Below are positions 14,008-33,432 of a stretch of DNA of 33,432 bases, piece after piece (position 1 is the first letter of the stretch; every line of letters begins with the position of its first letter). Source of the stretch: Acidobacteriaceae bacterium (GTDB lineage Bacteria > Acidobacteriota > Terriglobia > Terriglobales > Acidobacteriaceae); contig PLWX01000278.1 of assembly GCA_003151155.1 (NCBI GenBank), forward strand, positions 1-33,432, read 5' to 3'. A model generated the notes under the pieces. It searched no databases. It had not been told where the DNA came from and saw nothing but the letters and a program-made list of their open reading frames with translations. The position numbers were made by a program, and so were the translations under genes.

Positions 14008-14036
14008 ACAAGCGCCACGGTTGACGTGCGGAAAAA

Positions 14037-15941
14037 CTATTGTCCCAACCCAATGTGCCGCAACAATTCCTGGAAGCGTGGGTCGCCCCGAAGTGGGTCG
14101 AACGCTGGATCAACCTTGAGGCTCGTCACGAGGTTGGAATGTTGCCGGTAAGCGGCTTGCAGGACCGATATGGCTTCCTCTTTCTTGCCCATTGCGACGT
14201 AAGCCTGTACGACCGTTAGGTCCAACGTGTCCGTTCTTCGCGTCCTATTCCACTTCGCGGTTGCAAGTGCCCGCTCAGCCTTCAACATGTCACCGGAACG
14301 CCCATAAATGTAGGCTTGCGACTCCCACGCCCGGGAATCATTCGCCTGCCAAGATTGCGTGTCCGCCAGGGCTTCCTGAAACATTCCCTTTTCTACGTAT
14401 GGCAGGGTCACCATGTGTGCGCGCGCGAAGTTCGGTTCCATGGCGATCACGACATGGAATTGATCGATAGCTCGATCATATTGTCGCGAGTAATAGAGAA
14501 TGGCCCCTTGATCCGTTGCGATGATTAACGATAGCGGGTCTAGCTGCCGCGCACGCTCGCTCTCCGACAATGCTTCCGCGAAGCGTCCCTCGAACGACAG
14601 GCACTCGGCATACCATTGATGGGCCGTGGCATATTGCGGATCCAGTTCAATCGCTCTTCGATATTCTTTCTCTGCCGTCTGCCAATCGTAGTCATAGTTC
14701 TCTGCAATCAGCGCTAAGGATGTATGCGCCTCCGCGAGGTTGTCGTCCAGTTGAAGTGCTCGCAAAGCGGCCGCGCGCGCTTTCGGCATGAACTCATTCT
14801 GCGGAACCTGTGTCCAACTGCTCATCAGGGCAAAGGTGTCAGCCAGACCAGCGTAAGCCGGCGCGTAATTCGGGTCCTTGTCGATAGCCTTCTGGAAGTA
14901 ATCCGCTGCTTGTCGAAAACCTTCGCCTGTCCGCTTGTTCCAAAAGTATCGCCCTCGCAGGTAAAGGTCATACGCTGCGTAGGAGGTATCTGGAGCGAGC
15001 TTGCGACTCGCGGCAATTGGTTTGGGACCTCTCCCGAGTGTCAGTTGAATCTCGTCCGCCGTCTCTTGTGCGATCTCGCTCTGTAGCGCTAGCAGGCTGT
15101 TCAGTTCGCGATCGTATTGTCGTGACCAGACACGGGTCTGGTCCTTCATCTGGATCAGTTGGGTGGTCACTCGCACCCTGTCCGCTTCCCTCCGGACGCT
15201 GCCCTCCAGCAGGTACTGCACGCCTAACTCGCGGCCGATCTGACCTATTTCCTCATTCCCGTGTTTGTAATGCATTACGGAAGTCCGTGAGATCAATCCC
15301 AGGTGCTCCGGATCCATTCGGCCCAATTGCGCAATGATTTCTTCAGTCAGGCCATCGCTCAAATAGTCTTGCGCGGCGTCTCCGGTAAGGTTTTCGAAAG
15401 GCAACACGGCTATCGTGAGGCGCGTCGGAAGCGGCGTCCGTGCACGCGCTCGAGACCAGGCGACAATGCCGGCGGCCAGTACGACGAGAAGTGCCGCGAT
15501 GCCGAGCCAGAGCGGCCAACGGCGCTGAAGCGCTGGCACTGTCGGCATTTCAACCGTCTCGGTGGGTGGGATCGCAGCCGCCAACTCAGCAAGCGCGATC
15601 TCCTCGACTGGTGCAATGAACCGGTACCCCTGCCGCGGCAGCGTCTCAATGTAGCGTGGATTTTCCGGGGAATCTCCCAGCGCCGCCCGCAGTTTCTTCA
15701 TCGCGCTGTTCAGGCTGTGTTCAAAATCCACGAAGACATCGGCGGTCCACAACTTCTCCCGCATTTCCTCGCGGGTTACTACTTCCCCAGGTTTCTCCAG
15801 CAGGATCGAGAGGATGCAAAATGGCTGACCAGGCAGGCGGATCTGTACCCCGTGCTTGCGGAGTTCCCGTGCCCCTAGGTTCACCTGGAAGACGCCGAAG
15901 CGGAGAATTCGTCCCGGCAAAGATGTTTTCGTTTCTGCCAA
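14037..15941 (-). CDS. CadC-like winged-helix regulator with TM segment and TPR repeats
   Basis: A 634-aa membrane regulator common in Acidobacteriota. Residues 12-112 are an OmpR/CadC-type winged-helix DNA-binding domain (RELRKHGVQIRL, the EVVTREEMREKLW recognition region, RYIETLPRQGYRFI wing). One transmembrane helix lies at about 143-162 (PLWLGIAALLVVLAAGIVAW). Residues 175-310 form a periplasmic domain of the adenylate-cyclase/FlgO-like type (IAVLPFENLTGD, YLSDGLTEEIIAQL). About seven TPR-like repeats follow from 340. The start is TTG at 15941: a TGA stop lies two codons upstream in frame and no ATG precedes the DNA-binding domain, so TTG is forced. The signal sensed is unknown. It is divergent from the cytochrome peroxidase-like gene and may control it. 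Confidence 0.88.
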   Translation of the reverse strand: MAETKTSLPGRILRFGVFQVNLGARELRKHGVQIRLPGQPFCILSILLEKPGEVVTREEMREKLWTADVFVDFEHSLNSAMKKLRAALGDSPENPRYIETLPRQGYRFIAPVEEIALAELAAAIPPTETVEMPTVPALQRRWPLWLGIAALLVVLAAGIVAWSRARARTPLPTRLTIAVLPFENLTGDAAQDYLSDGLTEEIIAQLGRMDPEHLGLISRTSVMHYKHGNEEIGQIGRELGVQYLLEGSVRREADRVRVTTQLIQMKDQTRVWSRQYDRELNSLLALQSEIAQETADEIQLTLGRGPKPIAASRKLAPDTSYAAYDLYLRGRYFWNKRTGEGFRQAADYFQKAIDKDPNYAPAYAGLADTFALMSSWTQVPQNEFMPKARAAALRALQLDDNLAEAHTSLALIAENYDYDWQTAEKEYRRAIELDPQYATAHQWYAECLSFEGRFAEALSESERARQLDPLSLIIATDQGAILYYSRQYDRAIDQFHVVIAMEPNFARAHMVTLPYVEKGMFQEALADTQSWQANDSRAWESQAYIYGRSGDMLKAERALATAKWNRTRRTDTLDLTVVQAYVAMGKKEEAISVLQAAYRQHSNLVTSLKVDPAFDPLRGDPRFQELLRHIGLGQ

Positions 15942-16054
15942 TTCTCACCGCACCCAAGGGTAAGAAACAGGGCCCGATCGCGCAGTTACCAATTGAGGTA
16001 AGCCGAAGCTTATCTTAGATTTGGCTGGTCATCAACAGATCATCCGGGCGAGCA

Positions 16055-16083
16055 TTGCATTTGTCCTATTTCCTGCTTAACGT
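16055..16083 (+). promoter_or_regulatory. Possible promoter of the 16159 gene
   Basis: TTGCAT (16055-16060) and TAACGT (16078-16083) are spaced by 17 nt and end 75 nt upstream of the ATG. The -35 box is good, the -10 box weak (3 of 6). Confidence 0.3.
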
Positions 16084-16158
16084 GCTCACAATTCCGGGCC
16101 CGAGTTCCCCCAAAACCAAGAAACCCAAGCCGCGCCAAAGGCGCTATCGGAGCATTCC

Positions 16159-17751
16159 ATGCAGATTTGGTCAGCCGCTAAGTCCAGCCTCAGCTATCGT
16201 TTGTCCCGGCTTTTTTCAAGAATCTCGGCACCCAGGCGACCGAATAAACGATGGATCATCGCTACCGTCCTCACCACCGTCGCGATCTTGATGACGATCG
16301 CTGTCCTTAACGGCGAACAACCGCGAGAAGATGAGAACCGGATGTACTTCGCCAATCCGAGCGGCGTATCGCAAACTTTCAGCACCATGCACAACGCTTT
16401 CGATCCGAGGGGTCCGTTCTTCCAAAGCATGGGAACCAACGGCCGCTCCTGCTCGACCTGTCATCAACCGAGCGACGGCATGTCCATCGCCCCTGCCAGC
16501 ATTCAGCAGCGCTTTCGATACACCCGCGGCCAGGATCCTCTCTTCCGCACCGTCGATGGGTCCAACTGCAACCACAATATCGACGTTTCGACCCGCGAAG
16601 GCATGCAGGCCGCCTACAGCTTACTGCTGACCCGCGGCTTGATTCGTGTCGCAGTCGCCGTTCCTGCCACTGCAGATTACAAATTGGTCAGCGTGAACAA
16701 CCCCTACGGCTGCAGCGAAACCGATGTGATTTCCCAGTATCGGCGGGTTTTACCGTCCACTAATCTCCGCTTTCTCAGTTCGGTCATGTTCGACGGACGG
16801 GAATCGAGCCCCGCTACCGGCACGACCAAGATTCTGTTTGCAAACTATCCCACTGCCTTGCAAAGCGATTTGGCCCACCAATCGGTATCGGCCACAATGA
16901 CCCACGCCGAGGGGGATGGCACCCGGCCTACTGCGGCCGAACAGCAACAGATCGTCAACTTCGAGATGTCCCTCTTCACCGCCCAAATTCTCGACTTCAA
17001 GGCTGGCCGATTGGATGTCCACGGTGCCAACGGCGGACCGATGGCGCTCGTCAATCAGCCCTTCTTCATCAGCGCTAACTCCAGCGTTCACTTTCTATTG
17101 CCTCAATTAGAACTTCCCGGCGGGTTGAACACTCCCGGCGATAACCTGTTCACCTCCGCGATCTTCAATCTCTATGATGGTTGGGACAACACTCCCGCCA
17201 ATTCCCCGCGAGCAGCGATCGCCCGCGGGCAAGCCATCTTCGCCTCCAAGCCCATCAACATTACCGATGTCGCCGGCATTAACGATGACGTCGCTGCCGG
17301 AGGCTTGGTTGCCGGTGGCATTCCCGCTCTCCAAGGAACCTGCGGCACCTGCCACGACAGTCCCAACGTCGGCAACCACTCCTTCCCGACGCCATTGGAC
17401 ATCGGCACTGGCGATCCCAATGCCTCCGATCCTTCTATCAACCTGGGTGGTCTGGATGTCAGCTATCTGCCGAGTATCACTGTCTGCAAGTTAGACCCAT
17501 CCACTAATCTGCCGACGAGCAATTGCAAAACCACGACCGACCTTGGCCAGGCCCTGATCGATGGTCGCTTCGACCACGTCGCCAAAATCAAAGGACCGAT
17601 CCTGCGCGGACTCGCTAGCCGTGCCCCGTACTTCCACAATGGCTCCGCGCAGTCGCTCCTCGACGCGGTTCACTTTTACGAAACTCGTTTCGGCCTGGTG
17701 CTAACGCCACAGGAGGAGTCGGACTTGGTAGCGTTCCTGAAGACGTTGTAA
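16159..17751 (+). CDS. Di-heme cytochrome c peroxidase-like exported protein
   Basis: A 530-aa protein with a hydrophobic segment at about 33-51 (WIIATVLTTVAILMTIAVL), acting as signal anchor or uncleaved signal. The first heme c site is CSTCH (98-102) and the second CGTCH (395-399), each binding a covalent heme in the periplasm. The spacing between them and the closing segments GLASRAPYFHNGS and LLDAVHFYETRF, with final DLVAFLKTL, match the cytochrome c peroxidase/MauG superfamily C-terminal domain. Members reduce peroxide or oxidise a protein or small substrate; the physiological partner is unknown. It is larger than classical CcpA (about 330 aa), with insertions between hemes. GGAG precedes the ATG, and a strong hairpin terminator follows 50 nt after the stop. 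Confidence 0.88.
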   Translation: MQIWSAAKSSLSYRLSRLFSRISAPRRPNKRWIIATVLTTVAILMTIAVLNGEQPREDENRMYFANPSGVSQTFSTMHNAFDPRGPFFQSMGTNGRSCSTCHQPSDGMSIAPASIQQRFRYTRGQDPLFRTVDGSNCNHNIDVSTREGMQAAYSLLLTRGLIRVAVAVPATADYKLVSVNNPYGCSETDVISQYRRVLPSTNLRFLSSVMFDGRESSPATGTTKILFANYPTALQSDLAHQSVSATMTHAEGDGTRPTAAEQQQIVNFEMSLFTAQILDFKAGRLDVHGANGGPMALVNQPFFISANSSVHFLLPQLELPGGLNTPGDNLFTSAIFNLYDGWDNTPANSPRAAIARGQAIFASKPINITDVAGINDDVAAGGLVAGGIPALQGTCGTCHDSPNVGNHSFPTPLDIGTGDPNASDPSINLGGLDVSYLPSITVCKLDPSTNLPTSNCKTTTDLGQALIDGRFDHVAKIKGPILRGLASRAPYFHNGSAQSLLDAVHFYETRFGLVLTPQEESDLVAFLKTL

Positions 17752-17800
17752 CTCGCAATGGGAAATTTCTAGCTGGTTGCATCCACAACGGAATGCAACA

Positions 17801-17876
17801 ACGGAGTCGTCACTTTCCAATTTCTTCGGCTCAGGGGGAGCGAAGAGTATAGAAAGTGCGACTCCGTTTTCTCTCT
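17801..17876 (+). terminator. Long hairpin terminator after the cytochrome peroxidase-like gene
   Basis: ACGGAGTCGTCACTTTC (17801-17817) pairs with GAAAGTGCGACTCCGT (17852-17867), 16 bp with one bulged T. Inside, CTTCGGCTC and GAGCGAAG (17824-17845) make a second stem. TTTTCTCTCTC follows on the plus strand. A small hairpin GTTGCAT/ATGCAAC lies immediately before (about 17777-17798). The element ends two convergent genes; the left arm is also repeated at 10546. Confidence 0.7.
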
Positions 17877-17897
17877 CTAAAATTGTTCCTCTAGTCG

Positions 17898-18875
17898 CTA
17901 CCAGTACGTGACCGTCATCTTGTCGATCCACACGCTGAAATTGTCCTGGTGCGAATCTCCATCCAGTTGGATCGCCGGATTCATCTCGAACGAGTTCACC
18001 GCGCCAGCCGGATAGTCACGGTTCACATAATGCATGTCGCCGTTCATGGATACCGAAACAAAGTGCGTGCTGCCGTCAGGGTTTCGATAGAACTGGAGCA
18101 CCACGTGGTTCCAGGCATAGGCATTCACGTGGCATGGCAAGCCCGTGTGCTGCCAGGTGTCGATCACCGCGTTGGAAACCTGCCACGTTCCCGCGTACTG
18201 TCCGCTCAGATCGCATTCCGTCAAGAAATAATTCTTGTGTCCGCCGCGCGAGTAGAAGATGTCCATCTCGATCGCCTGCGTTTTCGTCGGATCTTTCACG
18301 TACATGTAGAAATCAAGTTTGAAATTATTCGCCACCGCTGCCGGCGCCAGCTTTTCAAAGAACAACGCATTCGCGTACGGCGTAGCCGGCGTCCCGCCCA
18401 GCCAGAACTGTGCCGATTGTCCGTCCAGCGACGGGCTCGTCTGGTTTGGGGTCATGCTGTTCGGAACATTCGGTCCGGTTCCGCCCTTACCCGCGCAACT
18501 GCTGCACGACGTCCACCCCGACATGCTCTGAATGTTGGAGATTGTCACCGTGCCCGTGGTCCCGGCGTTGACCGTCAGCACCTGCTGGAAGTAGTGGTCC
18601 TGGTTGTCCCAAGCTTTCACATACACCTGGTGGCCGCCCGCTGACAGCGGTAGCGTGACGTTCAAACTGCTCGCATTGATCTTGTACACGTCCTTGCTGT
18701 CGATATTGATGGTCATCGCTGCAATCGGCGAGTACGGCGAGGTTGCCGAAGCAACGAAGTTGGCGCTGCTCCCCACGTTCGCGTTATTTACCGGTGAACT
18801 TACGGTGACGCCTGCGTGGCAGACGATTGCTGACAATGCACAGAACAGCAGACTTCCCGGGATTCGTTTTCTCAA
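17898..18875 (-). CDS. Secreted Ig-like/lectin-like protein
   Basis: I place the start at TTG 18875, because GGAGAAG stands just upstream and the signal peptide (KRIPGSLLFCALSAIVCHAG) begins there; an ATG at 18944 would add 23 residues ahead of it and has a weak ribosome site. The mature protein has an N-terminal bacterial Ig-like domain (VSSPVNNANVGSSANFVA to YVKAWDNQDHYFQQVLTV), then a C-terminal beta-sandwich of roughly 200 residues with CSSCAGKGG, FKLDFYMYVKD, WNHVVLQFYRN and MNGDMHYVNRDY, in the style of concanavalin-like carbohydrate-binding sandwiches. It probably acts at the cell surface or outside. It is a near neighbour of another Ig-containing secreted protein. Confidence 0.8.
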   Translation of the reverse strand: MRKRIPGSLLFCALSAIVCHAGVTVSSPVNNANVGSSANFVASATSPYSPIAAMTINIDSKDVYKINASSLNVTLPLSAGGHQVYVKAWDNQDHYFQQVLTVNAGTTGTVTISNIQSMSGWTSCSSCAGKGGTGPNVPNSMTPNQTSPSLDGQSAQFWLGGTPATPYANALFFEKLAPAAVANNFKLDFYMYVKDPTKTQAIEMDIFYSRGGHKNYFLTECDLSGQYAGTWQVSNAVIDTWQHTGLPCHVNAYAWNHVVLQFYRNPDGSTHFVSVSMNGDMHYVNRDYPAGAVNSFEMNPAIQLDGDSHQDNFSVWIDKMTVTYW

Positions 18876-19108
18876 TTTCGCTTCTCCGCTGAATGAATTT
18901 CCAATAAAAAGTTGTGCAATGGAAGCTGGAGAGTAAGGAAGCATCTACTCTGCCTCAATAAGCGAAATTGCGTAGTTCGATTCGGGGAGAAACTTAGCGC
19001 CGCGCGGGATCGTGACACCTTACATCAACTATAAGAAGCACTTCCATGTTCCGCACCGGAAGTGGAGCATCGAATGGAAAGCTCGTTATGCGACTAAAGG
19101 GTGGCGAT

Positions 19109-19142
19109 AAAAACGCGCGGAGAGCCGCAGCCCTCCGCGCGT
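19109..19142 (-). terminator. Rho-independent terminator of the 19158-21830 gene
   Basis: Minus-strand stem ACGCGCGGAG/CTCCGCGCGT (19133-19142 and 19113-19122), perfect 10 bp with a 10-nt loop, followed by TTTTT (19109-19113). It starts 16 nt after the stop codon. Confidence 0.88.
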
Positions 19143-19157
19143 GGTGCCAGATTTGCT

Positions 19158-21830
19158 CTACAACAGTCCGTACACATCCAGTTCATTCGCGGTACTCACA
19201 AACACTTTCCCGTCCGTCACGGTGGGAACTACGAACTTCACCGCCGGCCCCGCTGTGTCGCGCGTTCCCGCCTGTGAGCTGTTGTAGAGTTCGGTGGCAA
19301 CGTTGTTGGCATCGTAAGCGTGCAGAACCGCCGGTCCTCCGGTCGTCTGCGCTGTCGACTCGATCTCCCACACGATCCCGTCCTGATTGCCGTTCGACGA
19401 AATCGATACCGTCGCGCCGTGCACGCCAAACACATGCGCGCCCTTCGACGTGTAGGTGCTCGAAAGCAAGCCGGTCGTGTTCGACCAGCTGTAGGCCTTC
19501 AGAACATCGCTCTCACAATGAATGTACAGGTTGCCGTTCCAATAGCCAGGTGTTGAGAAGATGTTGTCGAACTGTTGCGTACCCGTCTGCACCTTCTGGA
19601 TCACCTGGTCCGTGGTCGAGTTGAACTTGCCCATGTTGTCGCGATCGACCACGAAAATACGGCCGTCTTTTCCGCCCCCGATGACCTCGTTCGGGTGGCT
19701 CGAAGAATTCGTTGGCATCAGCACCACGTCTCCACTACCAAGGTCAGCATCGTTCGTGCGCAGGAAGGCTTCGTTCGAAGGCATGAAGAAGTCTGCTACC
19801 GCAAGCGCGCCCGTAATCTTGAGGAAACTGTCGTTATACCCCGACGCCGGATCGCCGGCATCGACGGCCGAGATCAGGAACATGTTCCCCGAAGAATCAA
19901 TTGCCGGAGCACCCCCTGCGTTCCAGATCGCTCCACCACCGCCATTCGGCGTCGTGTTCAGAATGCCCGTCGGAGTCAACGACGTCTTGTCATAGGAGAG
20001 AATCCAGCCATGGCTGCAATGCCCGAACGCTATGTAGATAGTATTGCCGGTCAGCGCCAGCGCAGACCGCTGGTAGCACGACCGTTCGAGAGTGATCGTT
20101 CCGCTCACGCTGTCGTAGCCGGTGCCGCTGACGGTACCAGTTACGATCTTCGATCCTCCGAACTTCTCTGCACCGGTCGTCACATCGAGCGCGTGCAGCC
20201 GGAAGGTTCTCCCGGAGGATTCCACCGTGTGCGAAACCACGTACATGGTGTTGGTCGCTGTATCGATCACCGGCGTGCTCGTGATGCCAATCAGCGGGCT
20301 GATGCCCTCCGTGTCTGTACTACTCAATGGAGTGCCGAAATGTACGCTCCACAACGGTGAAGTCGTGCTCCCGTCCGCGTCGAAAGCGTACACCGTGTTG
20401 TTCTCCGTCGCCGTGAACACCACGTTGTGTTGCGCACCCGCAATGGTCAGGTTCGGCAGATAGAGCGGCTGTGCATAGATCTGCCCATCCACCGCAAACG
20501 AATACTTCTTCCCAAACGTGCTTTGGTTCACGTTCGACGGAGTCAGTATCGTCTCGTTAGTGTTCGCTCCGGCGCGAGTTACATCGTTGTGATAGGTCGT
20601 CACCGGCACCAATCCTGGCGGCGGCGGATTCTGGACCGTCACCGTCGCGTTTGCGCTTTTCGTCGTATCCGCGGCGCTGGTTGCCGTGATGCTGTGCGTT
20701 CCCAGCGTGGAAGGTGCGGTGTAGAGTCCAGTCGCATCGATCGTACCAATGCTGGAGTTTCCACCCGGCGTCCCATCCACCGACCAGGAAGCAGCCGTGT
20801 TCGTGGTGCCCGTAACCGTTGCCGTGAACTGCTGGGTCGCGTTCGGCGCCACACTTGCCGTGCTCGGGCTCACGCTGATGCCCACCCCCACCGATACCGT
20901 TACGTATTCCGACGCACTCGTCCATGCTCCATTCGAGTAGATCTGGAAGACCAGGTGGTTGTTCCCCGAGGGCAGGCTGAGTGAAGTGTTCACCGTGTTG
21001 GCCGTCGTCGAATACTTCAGGACGTTGTTGGCATATACCAGGAACTTGGTGATCGCATAGTTTGAATCCGCGGCTGCAGAGAGTTGCACCGGATTAGAAA
21101 CCGTGGAACTTGGTGTCGGACTGCAGATCGTGATCGACGGCGCGGGCGACTTATCGGTACATCCACTGCTCGTACTCGTGACCGTCACAATCGCCGTGTC
21201 GCTCTTGGAAGTGTCCGCCTGGCTCGTCGCTACTACATTATGCGTGCCATTCGTTGCCGGCGCTGTGTACAAGCCGGAAGGTGTAATAGTGCCTACCGTG
21301 CTGCTTCCACCCCCAACTCCATCCACCGTCCAGGTCACGGCAGTATTCGACGTATTCAAAACCGTCGCCGTAAACTGTTGCGCCGCACTCGGGGCAAGTG
21401 TCACCGAGTTGGGCGAGACCGCTACGGAAACCGGTCCCGTTCCCGTCCCTGACGCCGTCACAATCACCGTGCTCTTAAACACCGCTCCGCTGGAATCCCA
21501 TGCGTTGATCGTGATGTTGTGCTTCCCGTTCGTCAACGTGAGCGAGATGCTCACCTGGTTTGAACTCGCCTTATAGGCGATCGCATTGTCCAGGTAGACG
21601 ATCATGGTCGTCACTGGATGAGCGTTATCCGTCGTGCCGGCGGTCACCTGCACCGTGGACGTCACCGTCGCGCCGTTCGCTGGCGTACAGATCGTCACCG
21701 ACGGCGAAGCAGGATTCAATGTACAGGGCGCCGCCGAAGCGACAACCGCAAGCGAAAAAACCACGGTGAGAAGGGTGAGTACAAAACGTGCGGGGGAGGG
21801 AAACGGGCGGCACCAGCGAACTTCGTTCAC
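19158..21830 (-). CDS. Secreted multi-Ig-domain protein with PQQ-type beta-propeller
   Basis: An 890-aa exported protein. GTG start at 21830 with GGAG upstream; signal peptide within residues 1-34 (FVLTLLTVVFSLAVVASAA). An Ig-like domain (about 40-150, TICTPANGATVTSTVQVTAG) is followed by a Big-2-like repeat (VSPNSVTLAPSAAQQFTATV), another Ig-like unit (SITICSPTPSSTVSNPVQL) and a second Big-2-like repeat (VSPSTASVAPNATQQFTATV), so the unit Ig-Big is duplicated. From about 430 to the end a PQQ/quinoprotein-like propeller is seen (TYHNDVTRAGANTNETILT, NTVYAFDADG, MYVVSHTVESSGRTFRLHAL, GRIFVVDRDNMGKF, LHAYDANNVATELYNSS). Such proteins are plentiful in Acidobacteriota and probably scaffold or bind at the surface; no dehydrogenase residues are claimed. 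Own terminator. Confidence 0.87.
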   Translation of the reverse strand: MNEVRWCRPFPSPARFVLTLLTVVFSLAVVASAAPCTLNPASPSVTICTPANGATVTSTVQVTAGTTDNAHPVTTMIVYLDNAIAYKASSNQVSISLTLTNGKHNITINAWDSSGAVFKSTVIVTASGTGTGPVSVAVSPNSVTLAPSAAQQFTATVLNTSNTAVTWTVDGVGGGSSTVGTITPSGLYTAPATNGTHNVVATSQADTSKSDTAIVTVTSTSSGCTDKSPAPSITICSPTPSSTVSNPVQLSAAADSNYAITKFLVYANNVLKYSTTANTVNTSLSLPSGNNHLVFQIYSNGAWTSASEYVTVSVGVGISVSPSTASVAPNATQQFTATVTGTTNTAASWSVDGTPGGNSSIGTIDATGLYTAPSTLGTHSITATSAADTTKSANATVTVQNPPPPGLVPVTTYHNDVTRAGANTNETILTPSNVNQSTFGKKYSFAVDGQIYAQPLYLPNLTIAGAQHNVVFTATENNTVYAFDADGSTTSPLWSVHFGTPLSSTDTEGISPLIGITSTPVIDTATNTMYVVSHTVESSGRTFRLHALDVTTGAEKFGGSKIVTGTVSGTGYDSVSGTITLERSCYQRSALALTGNTIYIAFGHCSHGWILSYDKTSLTPTGILNTTPNGGGGAIWNAGGAPAIDSSGNMFLISAVDAGDPASGYNDSFLKITGALAVADFFMPSNEAFLRTNDADLGSGDVVLMPTNSSSHPNEVIGGGKDGRIFVVDRDNMGKFNSTTDQVIQKVQTGTQQFDNIFSTPGYWNGNLYIHCESDVLKAYSWSNTTGLLSSTYTSKGAHVFGVHGATVSISSNGNQDGIVWEIESTAQTTGGPAVLHAYDANNVATELYNSSQAGTRDTAGPAVKFVVPTVTDGKVFVSTANELDVYGLL

Positions 21831-21986
21831 AGCGGACTCCGGAGGATGATTCAGGTGACTTGCTGGTTTTGTGTGCTTGCGGTGTGTTCATCTCGACTTT
21901 TGATGTGTTAAAAGTGATGCCGCAGCTCACGTCCGGGATGCTGGGCAGCTTGGAAGTGGAAAGTTAAAATGTTTTGATTTTCCGGT

Positions 21987-22009
21987 TACGGGCGATTTTC
22001 CAGCCCGTA
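21987..22009 (-). terminator. Weak hairpin downstream of the 22089-23024 gene
   Basis: TACGGGC/GCCCGTA 7-bp stem with a 9-nt loop, 80 nt beyond the stop. On the minus strand it is followed by A/T-rich sequence but no clean T run, so termination is uncertain. The rest of 21831-22088 shows nothing else I can name. Confidence 0.3.
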
Positions 22010-22088
22010 CTAAGGCATGGTTGGCAAAAACCAGCTAGGCCAACCACCCGCGCCTGTCGCCAGCCTCACGGGCGGCGGTTTGTCATTT

Positions 22089-23024
22089 TTACGGGGCCCT
22101 GTGCGGCAACTTGTTGTAGTCGCGCATGAACACGCGCAGGTCGTAGTTTGGGGTCTCCTTTGTGTATCCCGCCACCAATTGCTGCTGGTAATGGTCGAGG
22201 AAAAAATCAAACGGATCTTTCGGATCCATGTCCACGATCACCATGTCCGTATCTTTCATCGTGAGCTTCCCAAATCGCAACTGGTTGCCGCGATACACCA
22301 TGTAGTTGGTGGCAGCCACCTTCATTGCCGGCAGAGCGTTCGGTACTCCAAATACCTGCACAATCCCGCCCTGATCCACCCGAACCGCCGTGACTTTGCC
22401 CACAATGTGAGGCGGCGGCAACAGCGTCTCCGTATCCAGGATGAGATCGTCCTTGTCGATCTCCACTCCGTGCAGGCTCCCACCCTTGATCAGGTCCGCC
22501 ATGTTGATCCCGATCAAATCCATCAGACCTTTCACGGGAAGATGCAGCGCCTTCACCTTTTCGGTGTGCAACCGGACCTTGCCGTCGGGCGTAGCCGTCA
22601 GCGTTCCCAGCATTTCGAACCCGATGTCGCCCTTGCTGTGCAGTTTTCCTTTGGCTTTCAGCCGACCACCCTGTGCAATCTCGATCGACAGGTCCTTGAT
22701 CGGCGCATCGCTCTTGGCGAACACGTACGAATTGAGAATGTTGGCGAGCGATTCGGGGCTGATGGCGATTTCCGCCGATGCAATCTTCAGGCTGAAAGAA
22801 TTCTTGTCGTCGAACACTTGTATGTCGCCCGTCGTTGGCACCAGTTGCCCGCGCAACGTGCGGATGCTGACGCCAACCTTGTCGGTGAAGTGATACATCA
22901 CGTTCCGCATCTGCACTTCCACCGCTCGCGACGATTCGTCCGGCTTCGACGAGGCCTGGCCGAGAATCCCGCCCGCCGACATCAACATCACCGCCGCAGC
23001 AACCCATATTCGGCTTACCGGCAT
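22089..23024 (-). CDS. Secreted protein of unknown function, LmeA/TULIP-like at most
   Basis: A 311-aa exported protein; signal peptide MPVSRIWVAAAVMLMSAGG, cut near ILGQ. AAAGGAG lies 5 nt before the ATG. The mature part is beta-rich with two lipid-binding-like halves: VQMRNVMYHFTDKVGVSIRT, then FSLKIASAEIAISPESLANI, IAQGGRLKAKGKLHSKGDIG and KVRLHTEKVKALHLPVKG. The pattern of amphipathic strands (LKAKGKL, TLTATPDGKVRL) recalls periplasmic lipid-binding DUF2993/LmeA-type proteins, but I see no diagnostic motif, so this is a suggestion. No partner gene is adjacent. It is the last core-like gene before the tRNA fragment and island. Confidence 0.75.
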   Translation of the reverse strand: MPVSRIWVAAAVMLMSAGGILGQASSKPDESSRAVEVQMRNVMYHFTDKVGVSIRTLRGQLVPTTGDIQVFDDKNSFSLKIASAEIAISPESLANILNSYVFAKSDAPIKDLSIEIAQGGRLKAKGKLHSKGDIGFEMLGTLTATPDGKVRLHTEKVKALHLPVKGLMDLIGINMADLIKGGSLHGVEIDKDDLILDTETLLPPPHIVGKVTAVRVDQGGIVQVFGVPNALPAMKVAATNYMVYRGNQLRFGKLTMKDTDMVIVDMDPKDPFDFFLDHYQQQLVAGYTKETPNYDLRVFMRDYNKLPHRAP

Positions 23025-23155
23025 CTTGCTCCTTTCGTTCGGACCTGTGGCACGCTGTAGTGCCCTGTCTTAGGATGAGAATCTGCGGGGTCGATGCTTG
23101 TCAAAAGCGCTTGAAGTTGTGAAAGTTTTGTAGACTGAGAGAGAAAACAGGAGGA

Positions 23156-23200
23156 TGGTGGGCGCTGCAGGATTCGAACCTGCGACTTCCACCGTGTGAA
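23156..23200 (-). pseudogene. 3' fragment of tRNA-Val(CAC), probable attachment-site remnant
   Basis: On the minus strand the last 45 nt of a tRNA are intact: anticodon loop TTCACAC (anticodon CAC at 23196-23198), 3' anticodon arm GGTGG, variable AAGTC, T arm GCAGG-TTCGAAT-CCTGC, acceptor AGCGCCC, discriminator A and encoded CCA (23156-23158). The 5' half is missing: the bases next to the loop (plus strand GCTGC) pair at only three of five positions, and there is no D arm or 5' acceptor strand upstream. A break inside the anticodon loop is where tyrosine recombinases often cross over, so this reads as one end of an integrated element. No integrase is in the window. Confidence 0.7.
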
Positions 23201-23231
23201 GCTGCAAGCTTCATAAACTACAACAACTTAC

Positions 23232-23272
23232 AAGTGCTCGCAGGGGCTGCTAACTTCCGCTAAGTGCTTGCA
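23232..23272. repeat. Direct repeat AAGTGCTYGCA next to the tRNA fragment
   Basis: AAGTGCTCGCA (23232-23242) and AAGTGCTTGCA (23262-23272) are spaced exactly 30 nt start to start. Related TTGCA or TGCAAG patches lie at about 23203-23209, 23340-23353 (TCTTGC-AG-GCAAGA) and 23375-23381. Placement beside a truncated tRNA suggests recombinase arm sites. From 23273 to 23485 I see no gene. Confidence 0.35.
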
Positions 23273-23712: not shown

Positions 23713-24945
23713 ATGGAAAGGATTAGACCACGCTGGTTTCGTCGCAATCTCCAAGCGGCCCTTCGGGTCTTGCCCGTCACTGTGTTGACGGGCGCGCGGC
23801 AGACGGGCAAGACCACACTCACGCAGACGATTGAGCCGGCGCGGGCGTATTTCACTCTCGATGATGTAGGCGTTCTCGATCAGGCCGAGCGCAATCCTGA
23901 TTCGCTGCTTGCCACGCGCCCCGTCATTCTCGACGAGGTCCAGCGAGCACCACAAATCCTGCTCGCAGTCAAACGGGCCGTGGACACACAGAGGAAAGCC
24001 GGAGACTTCATTCTGACCGGCTCCGCCAACCTGCTGCTGATGAAACATGTGGCGGACTCACTGGCTGGCCGCGCGATCTACTTGGATCTCCGGCCGTTTT
24101 GTCCCACGGAGTGGCAGGAACGCAAGGACGCATTGTTGCCGCTGGAACGTTTGTTTGCCCCGGATTTTGATTGGCGTGAGTGGCCGGACGAACCAGGCGA
24201 CTGGCCTCGATGGCTGCTGCGCGGAGGCTTCCCGCCTGCACTGCAGATCGCTTCCGAAGCGGACCGCGGCCTGTGGTTCGCTGCGTATGTGCAGACGTAT
24301 CTGGAACGGGATTTGCGTCAATTAAGCGCCGTTTCCAGCCTGCCTGATTTTCAGCGCGTGATGATGCTGGCCGCGCAACGGACCGGCAAGCTGCTCAACC
24401 AAGCCGACCTGGCCCGCGACGCGGCGCTCAGTCATCCGACCACGCACCGGTATTTGAACTTGCTGGAAACAGGTTGCCTGATTACGCGCATCCGCCCGCT
24501 GGCGACCAATCCTTCCACGGCGCTCGTCAAAGCGCCGAAGCTGCTCTGGACGGATTGCGGCCTTGCCGCCTGGCTTGCCGGAATCAAGTCGTCCGCGGGT
24601 GTATCGACCCGCATCGACGCGGGGTTTTGGTTGGAGCAAACCCTGTTCCAGACCCTGGAGACATGGCGCGCCCTTGATCCACAACAACGCAAGGTGCACT
24701 TCTGGCGCGACCGCGCGGGGCACGAAGTGGATTTCATTTTGGAAGAGGCCGGCAAGTTGGTTGCATTGGAAATCAAGGCAGGCAGTCAGGTAACCACCAG
24801 TGACGCAACCGGAATCCGCGCCTTCCGGGATGATTTGAAACGCAAAGCATCTCTTGTACGAGGAGTGGTGTTGCATGGCGGCAAAGCACGTCTGCTTGAA
24901 GAAGGCGTTCTCGCTCTGCCTTGGGGATGGCTAGTCCCCAAATGA
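23713..24945 (+). CDS. AAA_14/DUF4143 ATP-binding protein
   Basis: A 410-aa protein of the widespread family with an N-terminal AAA_14 ATPase and C-terminal DUF4143. Walker A is GARQTGKT (27-34), Walker B is VILDEVQ (71-77), and the sensor segment is FILTGSANLLL (about 98-108). The middle region YVQTYLERDLRQLSAVSSL and the winged-helix-like QADLARDAALSHPTTHRYLN are typical. The C-terminal FWRDRAGHEVDFILEE and LVALEIKAG form the E-V-D-F-x(n)-E-I-K pattern of a PD-(D/E)XK-like nuclease fold. These solitary genes are abundant in mobile and defence-rich regions; no clear function is known. It is intact although everything around it is broken, and it sits between an IS remnant and a ugd fragment. 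Confidence 0.9.
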   Translation: MERIRPRWFRRNLQAALRVLPVTVLTGARQTGKTTLTQTIEPARAYFTLDDVGVLDQAERNPDSLLATRPVILDEVQRAPQILLAVKRAVDTQRKAGDFILTGSANLLLMKHVADSLAGRAIYLDLRPFCPTEWQERKDALLPLERLFAPDFDWREWPDEPGDWPRWLLRGGFPPALQIASEADRGLWFAAYVQTYLERDLRQLSAVSSLPDFQRVMMLAAQRTGKLLNQADLARDAALSHPTTHRYLNLLETGCLITRIRPLATNPSTALVKAPKLLWTDCGLAAWLAGIKSSAGVSTRIDAGFWLEQTLFQTLETWRALDPQQRKVHFWRDRAGHEVDFILEEAGKLVALEIKAGSQVTTSDATGIRAFRDDLKRKASLVRGVVLHGGKARLLEEGVLALPWGWLVPK

Positions 24946-25080: not shown

Positions 25081-25329
25081 CTAGGCTACGGCCTCAGTGC
25101 TCGCATTGCGTTCTACTTCAACGCGAGTTACATCGGGCCGACCGATGCTCAGGTAGTTGAAATCGAGCTTGCGCATCTCTTCAGGGCTCAGCAAATTGCG
25201 GCCATCGACGATGATCGGATAGCGCAACAAGCGGCGAATGCGAGCGTAATCCAGATGTTTGAACTCATCCCACTCCGTCAGCACCAGAAGAGCGTCAGCC
25301 CCCTCCGCGGCGTTTTCCAAAAAGAGAAT
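25081..25329 (-). pseudogene. ugd: UDP-glucose 6-dehydrogenase, C-terminal remnant
   Basis: About 80 residues of the UDP-glucose/GDP-mannose dehydrogenase C-terminal domain are present: AAEGADALLVLTEWDEFKHL, then RRLLRYPIIVDGRNLLSP and FNYLSIGRP, the standard end of the protein. The NAD-binding and catalytic domains (about 350 residues) are absent: homology stops near 25320-25330, where unrelated AT-rich sequence begins. Intact Ugd makes UDP-glucuronate for polysaccharides. The retained stop, 3' flank and terminator show this was a true gene end, truncated by a rearrangement whose breakpoint is near 25,325. Confidence 0.8.
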
Positions 25330-25708: not shown

Positions 25709-26197
25709 GTGTTTTTATCCAACTCAGGACGGAGCGACCGGAGGATCCGGAACTGGCACAGCACGATGTCCGCCTCGATCGTCTTCCCGAGGCCGAAGGA
25801 ACTACGCAAATGGGTAAAGACATTTCCTGCCGAGTTCTATCAGGAAATGTTCCGGTTGAGGAAATTGCCATACACCAGCAGTGTCAAAAAACCTCAATAT
25901 ATCGGGCACCTGACGAATGACCTCGTCTATGCTCGACTTGCGCCAGGTGTTTTAGAGGAGCTGAGACGAGTTACGCCTCGTGACGATAAAGGAAAATTGA
26001 GGCACAGACTTTTCCAGCACCTCACGGAGGACATAGGCCATCCCAAGTTACGCGAACACCTCGCATCTGTAATTGCCCTTATGAAGGCGGCCGATAAATG
26101 GGATCAGTTTATGGTGATGATGGATAGATCGCTAAAGCGGCATACTCCGCTCCCGCTCTTCGATGGACAGGATGACGAGGCTATGACGGTATCCTAA
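25709..26197 (+). pseudogene. P63C-domain protein, C-terminal remnant
   Basis: From about 25796 the frame matches the P63C domain: KELRKWVKTFPAEFYQEMFR, YIGHLTNDLVYARLAPGVLE, LFQHLTEDIGHPKLREHLAS and VIALMKAADKWDQFM, with an apparently natural C-terminus. The residues before Lys30 (MFLSNSGRSDRRIR...) are not P63C-like, and intact proteins are roughly 250-400 aa, so the N-terminal part is gone. P63C proteins occur on phages, plasmids and islands; function unknown. Fits the mobile-debris setting. Confidence 0.75.
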
Positions 26198-26362: not shown

Positions 26363-26467
26363 ATGGGAAGAAAGCCGAAGCAGCAGAGAAGCGCAGAAGA
26401 GAAGTTAGCCATTGTGATGGAAGGCCTGAAGTCGGGGAACGTGGCTGAGACCTGCCGCAAGTTTGGG
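26363..26467 (+). pseudogene. IS3 OrfA, N-terminal 35 codons only
   Basis: MGRKPKQQRSAEEKLAIVME, then KSGNVAETCRKFG, is the start of an IS3 OrfA helix-turn-helix protein of normally about 90-100 aa. After CRKFG the frame runs into orfB-side sequence, so the recognition helix end, leucine zipper and the usual programmed-frameshift region are deleted. Confidence 0.75.
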
Positions 26468-27356
26468 GCGAGTGAGCTGCGGGCAAGCGCATTCGTCGGC
26501 GCGGGAGTTGGTGGCCCAGGGTCAGGAAGTGAAGCTGGTGGCCGAGACGGTCGGCATCAGCCGCTCGAGTCTGTATTACAAACGGAAGGCGCACGGTTCG
26601 CGTGCCGATCGCCGGCTCGACGGCATCATCGTCGAGGCCTGCGGCGCCAAACCGGCGTATGGCTATCGCCGGGTGGCGTGGTGGATGCACCGCAAGCAAG
26701 GTCTACAGGTGAATGGCAAGCGGGTGTTGCGCGTGATGCGCGAGCGCGGACTGCTGGTCACGCCGCGACGCACCCGGGCGCGACGCAAGAAGGAGTGGAG
26801 TCGCATCGTGGCGGAGTTACCGAATCAGCTGTGGCAGACCGACATGACCAAGGTCTGGGCGGGAACCAGTGTCGGCTGGGCCTATCTGGTGTCGGTGATC
26901 GACTGCTGCACCCGCGACATCGTGGGCTGGGACCTCAGCCTGCGCTGTCGCACCCAGGAGGCGATCGCCGCTGTCGAGCGCGCCGTGCTGGAGCAGATGT
27001 CGGATGGCTCGCGTCACTACGAACTGACGCTCAACACCGATAACGGCACGCAGTTCACTTCGACGCGTTTCCTGGACACGCTCTCACGGCTCGGCATCAC
27101 GCACCGCCGCACCGCGTTCAACCGTCCTGAAGGCAACGGCATGATCGAGCGCTTCCATCGCAGCTTGAAGGAGGAGGAGATCTGGCTGAACGAGTACCGC
27201 GGTCTGGAAGAAGCGAAGCAGTCGATCGGCCGCTGGATCGAAGAGTACAATCACGACCGCCCTCACCGGGCGCTCGGAAACCGAACTCCACGCGAAGCCC
27301 GGGCGGGCTTCGCACAACCTCAACCCCTAACTAAAACCGAGGCCCTCTGTGTCTAG
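26463..27356 (+). CDS. IS3 OrfB transposase (DDE), lacking its normal start
   Basis: The integrase core is complete: D127 (QTDMTKVW), D193 (NTDNGTQF) and E229 (NGMIERFHRSL), with exact D-35-E spacing. An HTH_21-like region (KPAYGYRRVAWWMHRKQG) precedes it and the tail (YNHDRPHRALGNRTPREARA) is typical. The first about 14 codons are not OrfB; they derive from the deletion joining orfA to orfB, and the only start is a TTG at 26463. Normal IS3 makes OrfAB by -1 frameshifting; here orfA is lost, so autonomous transposition is unlikely. Confidence 0.88.
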   Translation: MGRVSCGQAHSSARELVAQGQEVKLVAETVGISRSSLYYKRKAHGSRADRRLDGIIVEACGAKPAYGYRRVAWWMHRKQGLQVNGKRVLRVMRERGLLVTPRRTRARRKKEWSRIVAELPNQLWQTDMTKVWAGTSVGWAYLVSVIDCCTRDIVGWDLSLRCRTQEAIAAVERAVLEQMSDGSRHYELTLNTDNGTQFTSTRFLDTLSRLGITHRRTAFNRPEGNGMIERFHRSLKEEEIWLNEYRGLEEAKQSIGRWIEEYNHDRPHRALGNRTPREARAGFAQPQPLTKTEALCV

Positions 27357-27500: not shown

Positions 27501-28076
27501 CCATGGGAGAGCCTCTTCTTCCTCACCCTCAGCTCCGCCTTCTTCGTAGTGCGCACCAAAGCCAACGTCCTGTTGCAACGCCGCTACTCCCACAAGATCG
27601 ATAAGAGCACCGGCGTCCGTTCCGATCACACCGTCATCCTGACCTCTTTTGAGTCTGCTTCCGTTTACCCGGATGCGCTCCGCCGCGTCACCTTTCTGGA
27701 CGTGGAAAAGAAAAAACGATTCAAGTTCCTTACCAACAACTTCACTCTCCCGGCACCTGTGATTGCTCAGATCTACAAGTCGAGGGGGGCCGTGGAATTG
27801 TTTTTCAAATGGATCAAACAGCATCTCAGAATTAAGGCATTCTACGGCACCAGCGAGAACGCGGTGAAGACCCAGATCTGGATCGCTGTGTCGATGTATG
27901 TGCTGGTCGCCATCGCGCGAAAGCGGTTGGACCTGGAGGCAAGTCTCTACCAAACTCTACAGATTCTTAGTGTCACCCTTTTCGAGAGAACGCCCATTTC
28001 ACAGGCACTTCAGCCACTCGACATGGACGCAAATCTACTCGGGGACCCTAACCAACTGATTTTGTTCGATCTTTAA
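27501..28076 (+). pseudogene. IS4-family transposase, C-terminal remnant
   Basis: The frame opens after a TGA at 27498-27500 and reads SLFFLTLSSAFFVVRTKANV, then FLTNNFTLPAPVIAQIY, and YKSRGAVELFFKWIK, which is the Y-(2)-R-(3)-E-(6)-K signature of IS4 DDE transposases, then LRIKAFYGTSENAVKTQIW. The N-terminal half with the first two catalytic Asp residues is missing. The right end probably lies at the CCGGACAGCAGT just after the stop. The 140 nt before it (27361-27500) show nothing I can name. Confidence 0.82.
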
Positions 28077-28158: not shown

Positions 28159-29031
28159 CTATCCTTGCTTTTCCTTCGGAAAATCGGCCCCGCGAGAAAC
28201 CGCTTCCCACGCAGAGAACTGCTTGCGTAGCTCTTCGAGCTTTGCCGTAGCGGCTTCGTAAGCATCGTTGCCAAGAAGAAGACGATGGGGCGGGTTCGGG
28301 GACTCGATTGCCTTTACGATAGCGTGCGCAGCGCGAACCGGATCACCCGGCTGTTTGCCGGAGTTGGCGCGCACTTGACTGCGCCACGAGCCCGCCGTCG
28401 CAGCGTAATCGTCAATTTGCCGCTTGCTGTCGTTCGCCGAACGCCCGGCCCAATCGGTGCGGAAGCCACTCGGCTCGACAAGCATAACCTTGATGCCCAG
28501 CGGTTCCACCTCTTGCCAGAGTGCTTCGGACAAACCTTCCACCGCAAATTTAGTCGCGTTGTAGTATCCGACCGACGGGAATGAACGAAGTCCGCTGATG
28601 GAAGAGAAATTGACGATGAATCCTTTGCGACGTTTGCGCATTCCAGGCAGAGCCGCATGGATCATTCGACTCAGACCGAATACGTTGATCTCGAACATTC
28701 TACGTACTTGATCTTCTTCACTTTCTTCAACGGCCGCGAAATAGCCGATGCCCGCGTTGTTCACGAGTACGTCGATGCGATCGAATTTATCCTCGGCCGC
28801 CTTGATGGCCGCGTCGATCTGGCCCTGATCCGTGACGTCGAGCTTGAGCACCAAAGCCTCTCCCTTGGCTGCCAAACCGTTCAGCTCATCGGGATTGCGT
28901 GCGGTCACAACCGTGCGGTAGCCAAGCTCAAGCACATGTTTGGCGAGCTCGCGGCCAAAGCCGGTCGAGCAGCCCGTAATGAACCAAACGGGCTGCTCGG
29001 TGATCGCCGATTTGCCTTTTGTCGTTGCCAT
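28159..29031 (-). CDS. Short-chain dehydrogenase/reductase
   Basis: A 290-aa classical SDR. The cofactor loop is TGCSTGFG (19-26), NNAG at 91-94, the catalytic Ser in FSSISG (143/144) and Y157-x3-K161 (YYNATK). The C-terminal part (VEPSGFRTDWAGRS) is of the type seen in SDRs acting on small carbonyls. The residue after the second strand suggests NADP(H) is possible (TARNPDEL) but not certain. AAAGGAG lies 8 nt before the ATG. It is downstream of the aldehyde dehydrogenase on the same strand with a 37-nt gap, so co-transcription is likely. Substrate unknown; a carbonyl detoxification role fits the neighbours. Confidence 0.9.
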   Translation of the reverse strand: MATTKGKSAITEQPVWFITGCSTGFGRELAKHVLELGYRTVVTARNPDELNGLAAKGEALVLKLDVTDQGQIDAAIKAAEDKFDRIDVLVNNAGIGYFAAVEESEEDQVRRMFEINVFGLSRMIHAALPGMRKRRKGFIVNFSSISGLRSFPSVGYYNATKFAVEGLSEALWQEVEPLGIKVMLVEPSGFRTDWAGRSANDSKRQIDDYAATAGSWRSQVRANSGKQPGDPVRAAHAIVKAIESPNPPHRLLLGNDAYEAATAKLEELRKQFSAWEAVSRGADFPKEKQG

Positions 29032-29068
29032 TGTCGTATCTCCTTTGATGTGATTGCGAATATCGCCG

Positions 29069-30451
29069 TTATGCCGGCGCGTCGATCGGGGCGACGCGAA
29101 CCAACTTTTTGTTCACGAACTCCTGGATGCCCATGCTGGAGAGCTCGCGTCCGTAGCCGGAGTTCTTGATGCCGCCGAACGGCAAGTCCGGTGCCGTCCA
29201 GGTTGGGTGATTGACGAACATCATGCCCGTGTCGACGCGGCTTGCGACGCGTTTGCCGCGCGCAACATCCTTGGTGAAGACCGCCCCCCCCAACCCGAAA
29301 TCCGAATCATTGGCGAGCGCCACCGCCTCGTCCTCATTCTTGACTCGGAAGAAGAGCGCGACCGGACCGAAGAATTCCTCCCTAAAGGCGGGATTGCTGG
29401 GCTTGATATTCGTTAGGATCGTCGGCTGCATGAAAGAGCCCGGTCGCTCGATCCGTTTGCCGCCCATCACAAGGGTGGCGCCCTTGGCGACGGCTCGTTT
29501 GACCTGGTCCAGCAGTTGCGCCAGGGCTGCTTCCGTGGACAGAGGTCCGAGCGTCGTCGCCTTGTCCATCGGGTCTCCTGGCTCGAGTGCTGCCAGTGCT
29601 GTCTGGAACTTGTCGAGAAAACGGTCGGCCAGTTCTTCGACAACGATGAACCGCTTCGCTGCAACGCAGCACTGGCCCGTGTTGTTCATTTTGGCCCAGA
29701 CCGCCCACGCGACCGTCTTGTCGAGGTCGGCATCCTCGAGCACGATGAAGGCGTCGCTGCCGCCAAGCTCCATCGTCGACTTCTTGAGGTTTTGTCCAGC
29801 TCTCCCGGCAAGGCTTTTTGCGGCTTCCACGCCACCGGTCAACGCCACACCCTTGATCCGGGGATCGTCGATCACGCGGTTCACCTGGTCATGCGAGATC
29901 AGCAGGTTGGTGTAGGCGCCCGCCGGCGCACCCGCCTCCAGCCACAGTTTCTCAAAGGCAATGGCGCATTGCGGGACGCACCCTGCGTGCTTCACCATCA
30001 CGACATTGCCCGCCATCAGATTGGGAGCGGCAAAGCGCGCGAGCTGGTAGTAAGGAAAGTTCCAGGGCTGGACGCCGAAGAGCACGCCGAGCGGGGTGCT
30101 TACGACCTCTGCTTCGCCTGAGCTCGGCTTGAGGTGTTCTGGTGCGAGGAAGCGCTCGGCGTTCTTGGCATAGTAGTCGATGATGTCCGCGCTGAGCGCC
30201 ACTTCGCCGCGGGCCTGTTCGATGAGCTTGCCCATCTCGAGCGTCACAGGGCGAGCGAACTCATCCACACGCGTGCGCATGATAGTGGCGGCTTTTGCGA
30301 CCACAGCCGCTCGTTCAGCGAAGGTCGTGTGCCGCCAAGTCTCGAAGCACGTCGCGGCGGTTTCAATTGCCGTCTCAAGCTGCTTGTCGGTAAGTTCCCC
30401 GAACGTCTTCAGTATTTTGCCGTCGTAAGGGTTGATACTTTGGTAGGTCAT
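29069..30451 (-). CDS. NAD(P)-dependent succinate-semialdehyde-type aldehyde dehydrogenase
   Basis: A 460-aa ALDH, normal length for the short GabD2-like group. Asn131 in VQPWNFP, Glu228 in MELGGSDAF and the nucleophile in NNTGQCC (C262, preceded by another Cys) are present. Start Met is followed directly by SINPYDGK, as in SSADH-like proteins; AGAAAGGAA is the ribosome site. It oxidises aldehydes to acids; succinate semialdehyde is the usual assumption, but specificity is not proved. The gene follows a phosphoketolase remnant whose frame runs into the start region, and precedes the SDR. Confidence 0.92.
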
Positions 30452-30470
30452 GGCTTTGTTCCTTTCTAAT

Positions 30471-30807
30471 GTTGTTGTGCGGTTGCTCGCTCTTAGACTG
30501 CAGCTTCATCAGATCGTCGACATTGATCATCCGGATCTTCAAATTGGGCAGATGCTCGCGAAGGATGGAAACGGCCGCCAAGATCTCCAGCGTAGGCGTG
30601 TCTCCTCAACAGGCCAGTACCACGACCGGCTCGGTGCCTTGATCGTTGCTGGCCCATTGCCAGATGCCAATTCCTTCCGTGCAAGGCACGGCCGCCATGT
30701 CCATGGTCAGCCATTGCGGGAGGGCGGGTTTACCTGCAACGGTTGACGTAGTGCCGGCTGCGCAAGCAGTGGTCAAAGACCGATAGGCGACATTTGGCGT
30801 CTAGCGG
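30471..30807 (-). pseudogene. Phosphoketolase (xfp) 3' remnant with nonsense and frameshift
   Basis: Reading from 30807, [20 protein letters not shown] plus VN is a phosphoketolase segment. A 5-nt gap at 30741/30742 (normal proteins read about VNVIVAGK) shifts frame; from there [37 protein letters not shown], then AC-stop-GDTPTLE and [20 protein letters not shown] and LMKLQ follow. The stop is TGA at 30606-30608, where intact enzymes have Cys or Ala. The fragment ends at SEQPH and runs into the ALDH leader. The N-terminal about 500 residues and the last about 190 are absent. Between 30808 and 30930 I see nothing certain. Confidence 0.82.
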
Positions 30808-30930
30808 TTAAGTACTCGGCAAGCCGTGAGCACGCGGTAAACAAACGCACCGTGCCTTGGGCAATGCGGCCCAGTTGCACAATGCACTCGGCGATCATGT
30901 CCATATTGCAACACGCTCATGGCATAAGGA

Positions 30931-32031: not shown

Positions 32032-32035
32032 AATA

Positions 32036-32416
32036 TTAAACTTCGCTTCTACATGCATCCAAGCTTCCGAAGGAAGCCTCGATCTTTTGCTTCAACACTG
32101 CGGATGGTTCACCACCGCCTTTCGGCTTTAGACTGCGCCAGTAAAACGTGTGATTCCATGTTTGCGCTGCATTATTGAAGATCGCGGTCTTGTCAGCTTT
32201 GCCGGCTGTCGCGGTAATGATATTTTCCAATGGCAGGTCTGCAAGCTCCGTACCCGCTACCAGCTTGTTCAGATTATCGACATATCCCTTGTGGTGTTTG
32301 CCGTAGTGAAAGCCAATCGTATTTGCGGAGATTACGGGATTCAGCGCGTTCTCCGCGTAGGGCAGGGACGGTAAAACATACAAAGATGCCCTTTCAGTCG
32401 TGTCATTGCTCTTCAT
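32036..32416 (-). pseudogene. sodB: Fe/Mn superoxide dismutase, 5' remnant
   Basis: 126 codons from ATG 32416 (GAGGAGAAAAT upstream). [36 protein letters not shown] and [18 protein letters not shown] contain the two N-terminal metal-binding histidines (GFHYGKHH region and WNHTFYW). Homology ends at about ASFGSLDAC; the C-terminal alpha/beta domain with the other Asp and His ligands is gone, and the frame closes at 32036, four nt before the oxidoreductase start. It cannot be an active dismutase alone. Intact proteins are about 195 aa. Confidence 0.85.
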
Positions 32417-32442
32417 ATTTTCTCCTCGGCGGTGATGTAAAA

Positions 32443-32508
32443 GCCTAACGCTGCACTTCAGCGGGGCGCCGCTTGCGGATCATCCGCTATAAGGACTCGT
32501 TAGAAGGC
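32443..32508 (-). repeat. Degenerate integron attC-like site
   Basis: Minus strand: TTCTAAC (32499-32505) and GTTAGGC (32443-32449) correspond to the RYYYAAC and GTTRRRY core boxes (the second perfect, the first off by one base). Between them AGCGG/CCGCT can pair, and CCGC-TT-GCGG forms an inner hairpin; the right part GCTGAAGTGCAGCGTTAGGC is very like known attC ends. It lies between the hydrolase stop and the sodB start, as a cassette junction would. A GGCGCC/GGCGCC inverted repeat is just upstream (32532-32553). No integrase in the window. Confidence 0.45.
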
Positions 32509-33390: not shown

Positions 33391-33432
33391 CGTTTTCCTC
33401 TTATCTGCGAGAGTCATTGACCTCTCCTGTCC

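Follow-up and report, generated by a model that had tools for sequence, protein, structure and literature searches.

The window analysed here is a whole contig (C140) of 33,432 bp, one of the 336 contigs of a draft genome that is 93.4% complete and 5.3% contaminated, and it is free of N runs. On its minus strand, at positions 23156-23200, lies one half of a tRNA-Val(CAC) gene. The original prediction of a perfect 3' half with encoded CCA was borne out at exactly this place. The 45 nt run from the anticodon loop TTCACAC, which holds the CAC anticodon, through the 3' strand of the anticodon stem, the variable loop, the T-arm and the 3' strand of the acceptor stem to the encoded CCA. The 5' half is absent, as had also been predicted, since the flank agrees with the 5' half of the intact gene at 6 of 30 positions and a consensus search for this half came back empty across the window. 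A chance origin is excluded because the next-best ungapped match to the 45-mer within the window reaches 27/45. No sharp shift of base composition was observed at the junction. The features of the window are the following.

1..8180, no strand: chromosomal flank, syntenic with the region 8.6-16.5 kb downstream of tRNA-Val(CAC) in genome G001
8181..23155, no strand: DNA between the chromosomal flank and the half, non-syntenic with G001; either native to the site or an older insertion
23156..23200, minus strand: 3' half of tRNA-Val(CAC), very probably displaced, core of the attR-side junction; its intact copy is at 11369-11322 (-) of contig C297
23201..33432, no strand: putative element side of the junction, as indicated by synteny and by the direction of the half; it runs off the end of the contig
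23221..23230, plus strand: CAACAACTTA, a candidate arm site for the integrase; it lies toward the element, 20 nt away from the core
23232..23272, plus strand: direct repeat AAGTGCTCGCA (23232-23242) / AAGTGCTTGCA (23262-23272), possible further arm sites
23713..24945, plus strand: AAA_14 / DUF4143 ATPase ORF, from its Pfam domains
25084..25323, minus strand: C-terminal fragment of a UDP-glucose/GDP-mannose dehydrogenase
25709..26197, plus strand: P63C-domain ORF whose alignment covers just the C-terminal part of phrog_2384
26463..27356, plus strand: transposase with rve and HTH_21 domains; 162 bp close to the end of this ORF are common with C297 at 93%
27549..28076, plus strand: DDE_Tnp_1 transposase fragment
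28159..33417, minus strand: metabolic ORFs (short-chain dehydrogenase, aldehyde dehydrogenase, FMN oxidoreductase, Sod_Fe_N ORF, alpha/beta hydrolase)

Rfam calls no tRNA at the half at gathering score (RF00005 gives 15 bits for a cut-off of 29). ARAGORN reports a 73-nt 'tRNA-Val' at 23156-23228 by filling the 5' side with unrelated sequence; this call was rejected as a tRNA gene, its 5' side being unrelated and its fold not tRNA-like. An automatic annotation would list this false gene. Around the half, Rfam returned no intron family at gathering score, with sub-threshold matches only, and neither the nearby 5' half nor the intron model match of a tRNA gene with a group I intron was found.

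The location of the other end came from synteny with G001, a complete genome of the same genus in a single contig of 5,650,368 bases, where an intact tRNA-Val(CAC) lies at 965656-965730. The DNA upstream of this gene matches contig C297 of the own genome, and the DNA 8.6-16.5 kb downstream matches the window from 8180 to 1, in reverse. The comparison with relatives that had been proposed thus places a flank of C297 and a flank of the window on the two sides of one intact gene. As the G001 gene has C297 DNA on its 5' side and the left end of the window on its 3' side, C297 would therefore represent the attL side and the window the attR side of the DNA between them. The 15 kb that separate the half from the syntenic flank are unlike the intervening 8.6 kb of G001. 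They include an ORF of 311 aa (22089-23024) with homologues in 10 other genomes of 61 searched, and no tRNA was found near these homologues within the loci examined in the 10 genomes. A second att remnant gave no signal near 8.2 kb (best ungapped 45-mer match elsewhere in the window, 27/45) or in the ~9 kb downstream of the G001 gene (best 23/45). Two further observations concern these regions: the syntenic flank carries an ORF with a DehI (haloacid dehalogenase-type) domain at 6126-7199, and ~35 bp near the G001 tRNA-Val (L145 18509-18543) have many matches of 90-97% in the own genome (G000), as expected for a dispersed short repeat.

On C297, positions 11369-11322 of the minus strand read as 24 bases of the 5' side of the gene, NN, and 22 bases of its 3' end. 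The 29 bases absent under this 2-N gap come from the middle of the gene, mostly from the part that is repeated in the window; since the missing part is largely repeated there, a break of a short-read assembly is expected at this point, and C297 contains seven 2-N gaps of this type. The intact gene that the original prediction proposed to look for is thus present in the own genome, interrupted by a gap, and it surfaced solely through synteny. Direct searches for an intact copy had failed, whether with the 45-mer, for which no second copy was found in the own genome even at ≤3 mismatches, contrary to the identical copy that had been sought, with the pattern of the 5' half, or with RF00005 (46 matches; anticodons read at 30 loci and 13 further stretches). 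The 2-N gap, which interrupts the gene, explains why all three missed it.

A tyrosine recombinase had also been suggested as a neighbour of the intact gene, and a remnant of one is present. The ORF at C297 10523-11236 has a Phage_integrase domain (E 2.2e-11) that aligns only from profile position 57 onward; it lies 86 bp behind the CCA and reads toward the tRNA. Since another 2-N gap, at 10603-10604, falls inside this ORF, assembly damage and real truncation of the integrase are inseparable. C297 also encodes a resolvase, a KaiC-type ATPase and a histidine kinase. The own genome has five matches to the integrase of the relative G032, C297 included, and ARAGORN found tRNA-Met as the sole tRNA at these five loci. 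At ~11301-11284 of C297 (L187), we observed after the CCA a terminator-like hairpin that is common to C297 and G001 (L145), with paired stem changes. No such hairpin follows the half in the window, and in G001 the tRNA adjoins an aldo/keto reductase gene rather than an integrase gene. Should the hairpin belong to the native chromosome, a single insertion would need an extra event. In a separate observation, contig C231 (L188) starts, at 1-44, inside a third partial tRNA-Val(CAC), which is degenerate beyond the anticodon arm; its positions 5593-6513 share ~850 bp at 96-98% with C297 4330-5170. C231 may be a stacked element, a strain variant or a contaminant.

The gene was then compared across genomes. 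In a set of 100 genomes (the own genome and 99 relatives), the 45-mer is present with ≤3 mismatches in 25 genomes and at 29 places. ARAGORN recognises a full tRNA-Val(CAC) at 25 of the 28 places outside the window; two of the others are halves (L046 and L065) and one (L049) is incomplete because its stretch ends within it. The GTDB genomes contain 50 exact copies in 49 stretches; in 47 of them the 5' half is complete, with 29 or 30 of 30 bases matching, and the other three are halves (L190, L220 and one of the two copies in L223). A looser core search added a half in L226. In total, 81 copies (78 distinct) include seven halves, window included, plus the cut copy L049. The first base of the anticodon loop is where identity with the intact gene stops in three of the seven halves (L190, L220 and L226); it runs one or two bases further in the window and L223, and four further in L046 and L065. 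Judging from where this identity ends, the crossover probably takes place within the anticodon loop. Two stretches hold a pair of copies, which are perhaps remnants or tandem insertions: those of L223 are 2,057 bp apart, and in L226 an intact copy and an altered half are separated by 982 bp.

Sequence comparison among relatives confirms the mechanism of insertion. A complete element of 9.75 kb is found in G032, where the intact gene and the half stand 9.75 kb apart on the same strand. A tyrosine recombinase of 419 aa is encoded beside the intact gene, as is an HTH_17 protein, and the cargo includes dehydrogenases, an aldo/keto reductase and a LysR regulator. The recombinase frame (L073 14614-15873) ends inside the tRNA in antisense, so that its last residues are tRNA-encoded. 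In the MAG DBS1-3.bin155, both junctions are present (L231 and L190), and the MAG YS5.bin43 (L238) displays the unoccupied site with a full gene. The 5' flank and tRNA of L238 match L231 over 430 bp at 94%, while its tRNA 3' half and 3' flank match L190 over 86 bp at 95% and then over 4974 bp at 91%. Two findings had been named as fatal to an attachment site: a complete gene with its 5' half just outside, and the same half at an unoccupied site. Neither was seen, as no 5' half stands beside the half and both G001 and L238, which lack the element, have the full gene. More broadly, leaving the window aside, 15 of 80 copies have an integrase match no more than 2.5 kb downstream, a lower bound given that many loci extend less than 2.5 kb downstream and that two integrase queries were used, and all 15 integrases read toward the tRNA.

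The sequence next to the half brings a further clue. CAACAACTTA has one exact copy in the window. It is found in the same direction at 21 nt from the half of L220, as a 2-mismatch version at 20 nt from that of L190, and in the opposite direction at 15 nt from that of L223; no copy stands beside the halves of L046, L065 and L226. In intact genes with an integrase, it is located 4-7 nt after the CCA in mirror direction. With ≤2 mismatches and within 35 nt of the CCA, it accompanies 12 of the 15 copies with an integrase versus 9 of the 65 others (Fisher p 1.5e-6); among these 65 are six halves and three duplicate records that have neither motif nor integrase. Its position and this association suggest that CAACAACTTA may be an integrase arm site. 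The adjacent direct repeat could provide further arm sites, a short two-copy repeat that may also be due to chance.

The DNA on the element side is a mixture. The original prediction that everything to the right of the half is debris holds for the transposases and remnants but not for five long ORFs that are matched by Pfam domains over most of their length (23713-24945, 28159-29031, 29069-30451, 30931-32058 and 32572-33417). The transposase at 26463-27356 is presumably IS3-like. The P63C-domain ORF is probably truncated, as suggested by the restriction of its alignment to the C-terminal part of the phrog family. No integrase was found in the window. Relaxase or type IV secretion genes were found neither among the 10 element-side ORFs of the window nor among the Pfam-tested ORFs of C297, and none of 10 proteins (four from the window, three from C297 and three from C231) matches a phage structural family in PHROGs, the middle of the island lying outside the scope of both searches. 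Searches of viral contigs for the element end and for the tRNA 3' end returned 0 stretches each.

Taken together, these data make it very probable that an integrative element, or a tandem of elements, entered tRNA-Val(CAC) by a tyrosine-recombinase crossover and that the half is the displaced 3' fragment of the gene. The gene and integrase remnant of C297 and the synteny with G001 thus lend support to the predicted attachment site. In the mechanism that we propose, one or more mobile integrative elements would have been inserted by a crossover within TTCACAC, the 7-nt anticodon loop. The element's own copy of the 3' half would have rebuilt the gene at one end (attL, now on C297, with the integrase remnant behind it), and the original 3' half of the chromosome would have been displaced to the far end, at 23156-23200 (attR), next to the DNA that originally followed the gene. 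Order and orientation, as deduced from synteny with G001, are those expected, with the intact gene 5' and the 3' fragment downstream on the same strand. A single element may span everything between C297 and the window; if both belong to one island, it measures at least about 21.5 kb. It is probably decayed, and it is predicted to be immobile by itself since the adjacent integrase of C297 lacks its N-terminal part. Against the proposed mechanism, C297 and the window are not joined by any contig, 5.3% of the draft is contamination, the 29 middle bases of the C297 gene are missing, C297 lacks CAACAACTTA, the 15 kb left of the half are unlike the DNA of G001, the hairpin after the C297 gene has no counterpart after the half, and no integrase was found in the window.

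Tandem or successive insertions by the same mechanism are a serious possibility, to which we give somewhat less than an even chance. C297 would then represent the first of the junctions and the half of the window the final fragment, the region between 8.2 and 23.1 kb possibly being an older insert. Since CAACAACTTA is present in the window and absent from C297, the two need not be ends of one element. The third partial gene copy on C231 and its similarity to C297, the motif-bearing DNA on both sides of the half in L223 and the 15 kb of non-syntenic DNA left of the half point in the same direction. However, no further half or intact copy was detected in the own genome at ≤3 mismatches, and the att remnant sought near 8.2 kb was not found.

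Two other explanations are much less probable. In a simple decay, the 5' half would have been lost by deletion or IS insertion, or the gene split by an intron; transposase ORFs do occur ~3 kb right of the half, but its breakpoint is at the anticodon loop, like those of the halves elsewhere, C297 has a fuller copy accompanied by an integrase, and neither an intron family (Rfam) nor a 5' half was found in the window, which makes this scenario very improbable. Equally improbable is a chimeric assembly, in which a wrong join in the tRNA repeat would have misplaced the right-hand DNA: the draft has 336 contigs, C297 breaks exactly in the tRNA repeat and C231 begins in the tRNA gene too, but the window sequence is uninterrupted by N, and to the right of its half CAACAACTTA occurs at the spacing seen at the half of L220.

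Insertion by a tyrosine recombinase being the preferred reading, the locus can be compared with known systems. Sites within tRNA genes were reportedly the subject of work by Williams (2002). Among the matches listed by our literature searches on anticodon-loop integration sites and on tRNA-Val islands of Acidobacteria, no title dealt with this site. According to the Islander paper (PMC4383910), its catalogue comprises 3919 tDNA islands, of which 2083 are anticodon-centred and 3760 have a 3' fragment. As reconstructed from synteny, ours resembles such islands in combining an intact gene with a displaced 3' fragment on the same strand, a tyrosine integrase inside and a crossover at the anticodon subsite; it differs in that its ends are on different contigs and its integrase appears truncated. 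Of what defines an Islander island, three features were found here: an intact gene with a fragment (the C297 gene with its 2-N gap and the half of the window), a tyrosine integrase between both (C297 10523-11236, N-terminal part missing) and an intact gene where the element is absent (G001, and L238 for the L190/L231 element). Such islands also have gene and downstream 3' fragment in the same orientation on one replicon; here synteny with G001 yields a fitting order and orientation, while no contig joins the two. Their length is 2-200 kb, and ours, open at both contig ends, would reach the minimum of about 21.5 kb given above if C297 and the window form one island. Our locus thus adds another member to the tDNA islands with an anticodon-loop site, an ordinary kind catalogued in thousands (PMC4383910).

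Closer parallels come from the relatives. The 9.75-kb element of G032, of the same family, shares the tRNA-Val(CAC) site, the loop and an integrase that converges on the tRNA. Unlike here, this integrase is full-length (31% identical to the C297 remnant over 132 aligned positions), the cargo is different and CAACAACTTA does not stand beside its half. The element of DBS1-3.bin155 shares the 45-mer, a half cut at the loop and the 2-mismatch motif at 20 nt, and its integrase is the best match of the C297 remnant (35% over 159). It is likewise split over contigs, but its unoccupied site is known. In the same vein, PMC9897764 describes tRNA gene fragments that are made by integration of elements and listed as tRNAs by software. 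The miscall is alike, here by ARAGORN, whereas the examples in that paper are mainly archaeal and concern tRNAscan-SE.

To conclude, one end of a genomic island is fixed in a poorly known soil group and the contig with the other end is named. Our results also serve as a warning, as ARAGORN annotates the scar as a gene, whereas the real gene is masked by a 2-N gap. We propose, as a tentative view that falls short of an even chance, that tRNA-Val(CAC) is a recurrent and multiply occupied hot spot in Terriglobales-type Acidobacteriota for diverse anticodon-loop integrases that share CAACAACTTA and bring metabolic cargo; several stacked or strain-variable elements would be present here, with C297, C231 and the window as three different att copies. 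Besides, a half tRNA-Val(CAC), often together with CAACAACTTA, offers a cheap rule for recognising islands in draft genomes of Acidobacteriota.
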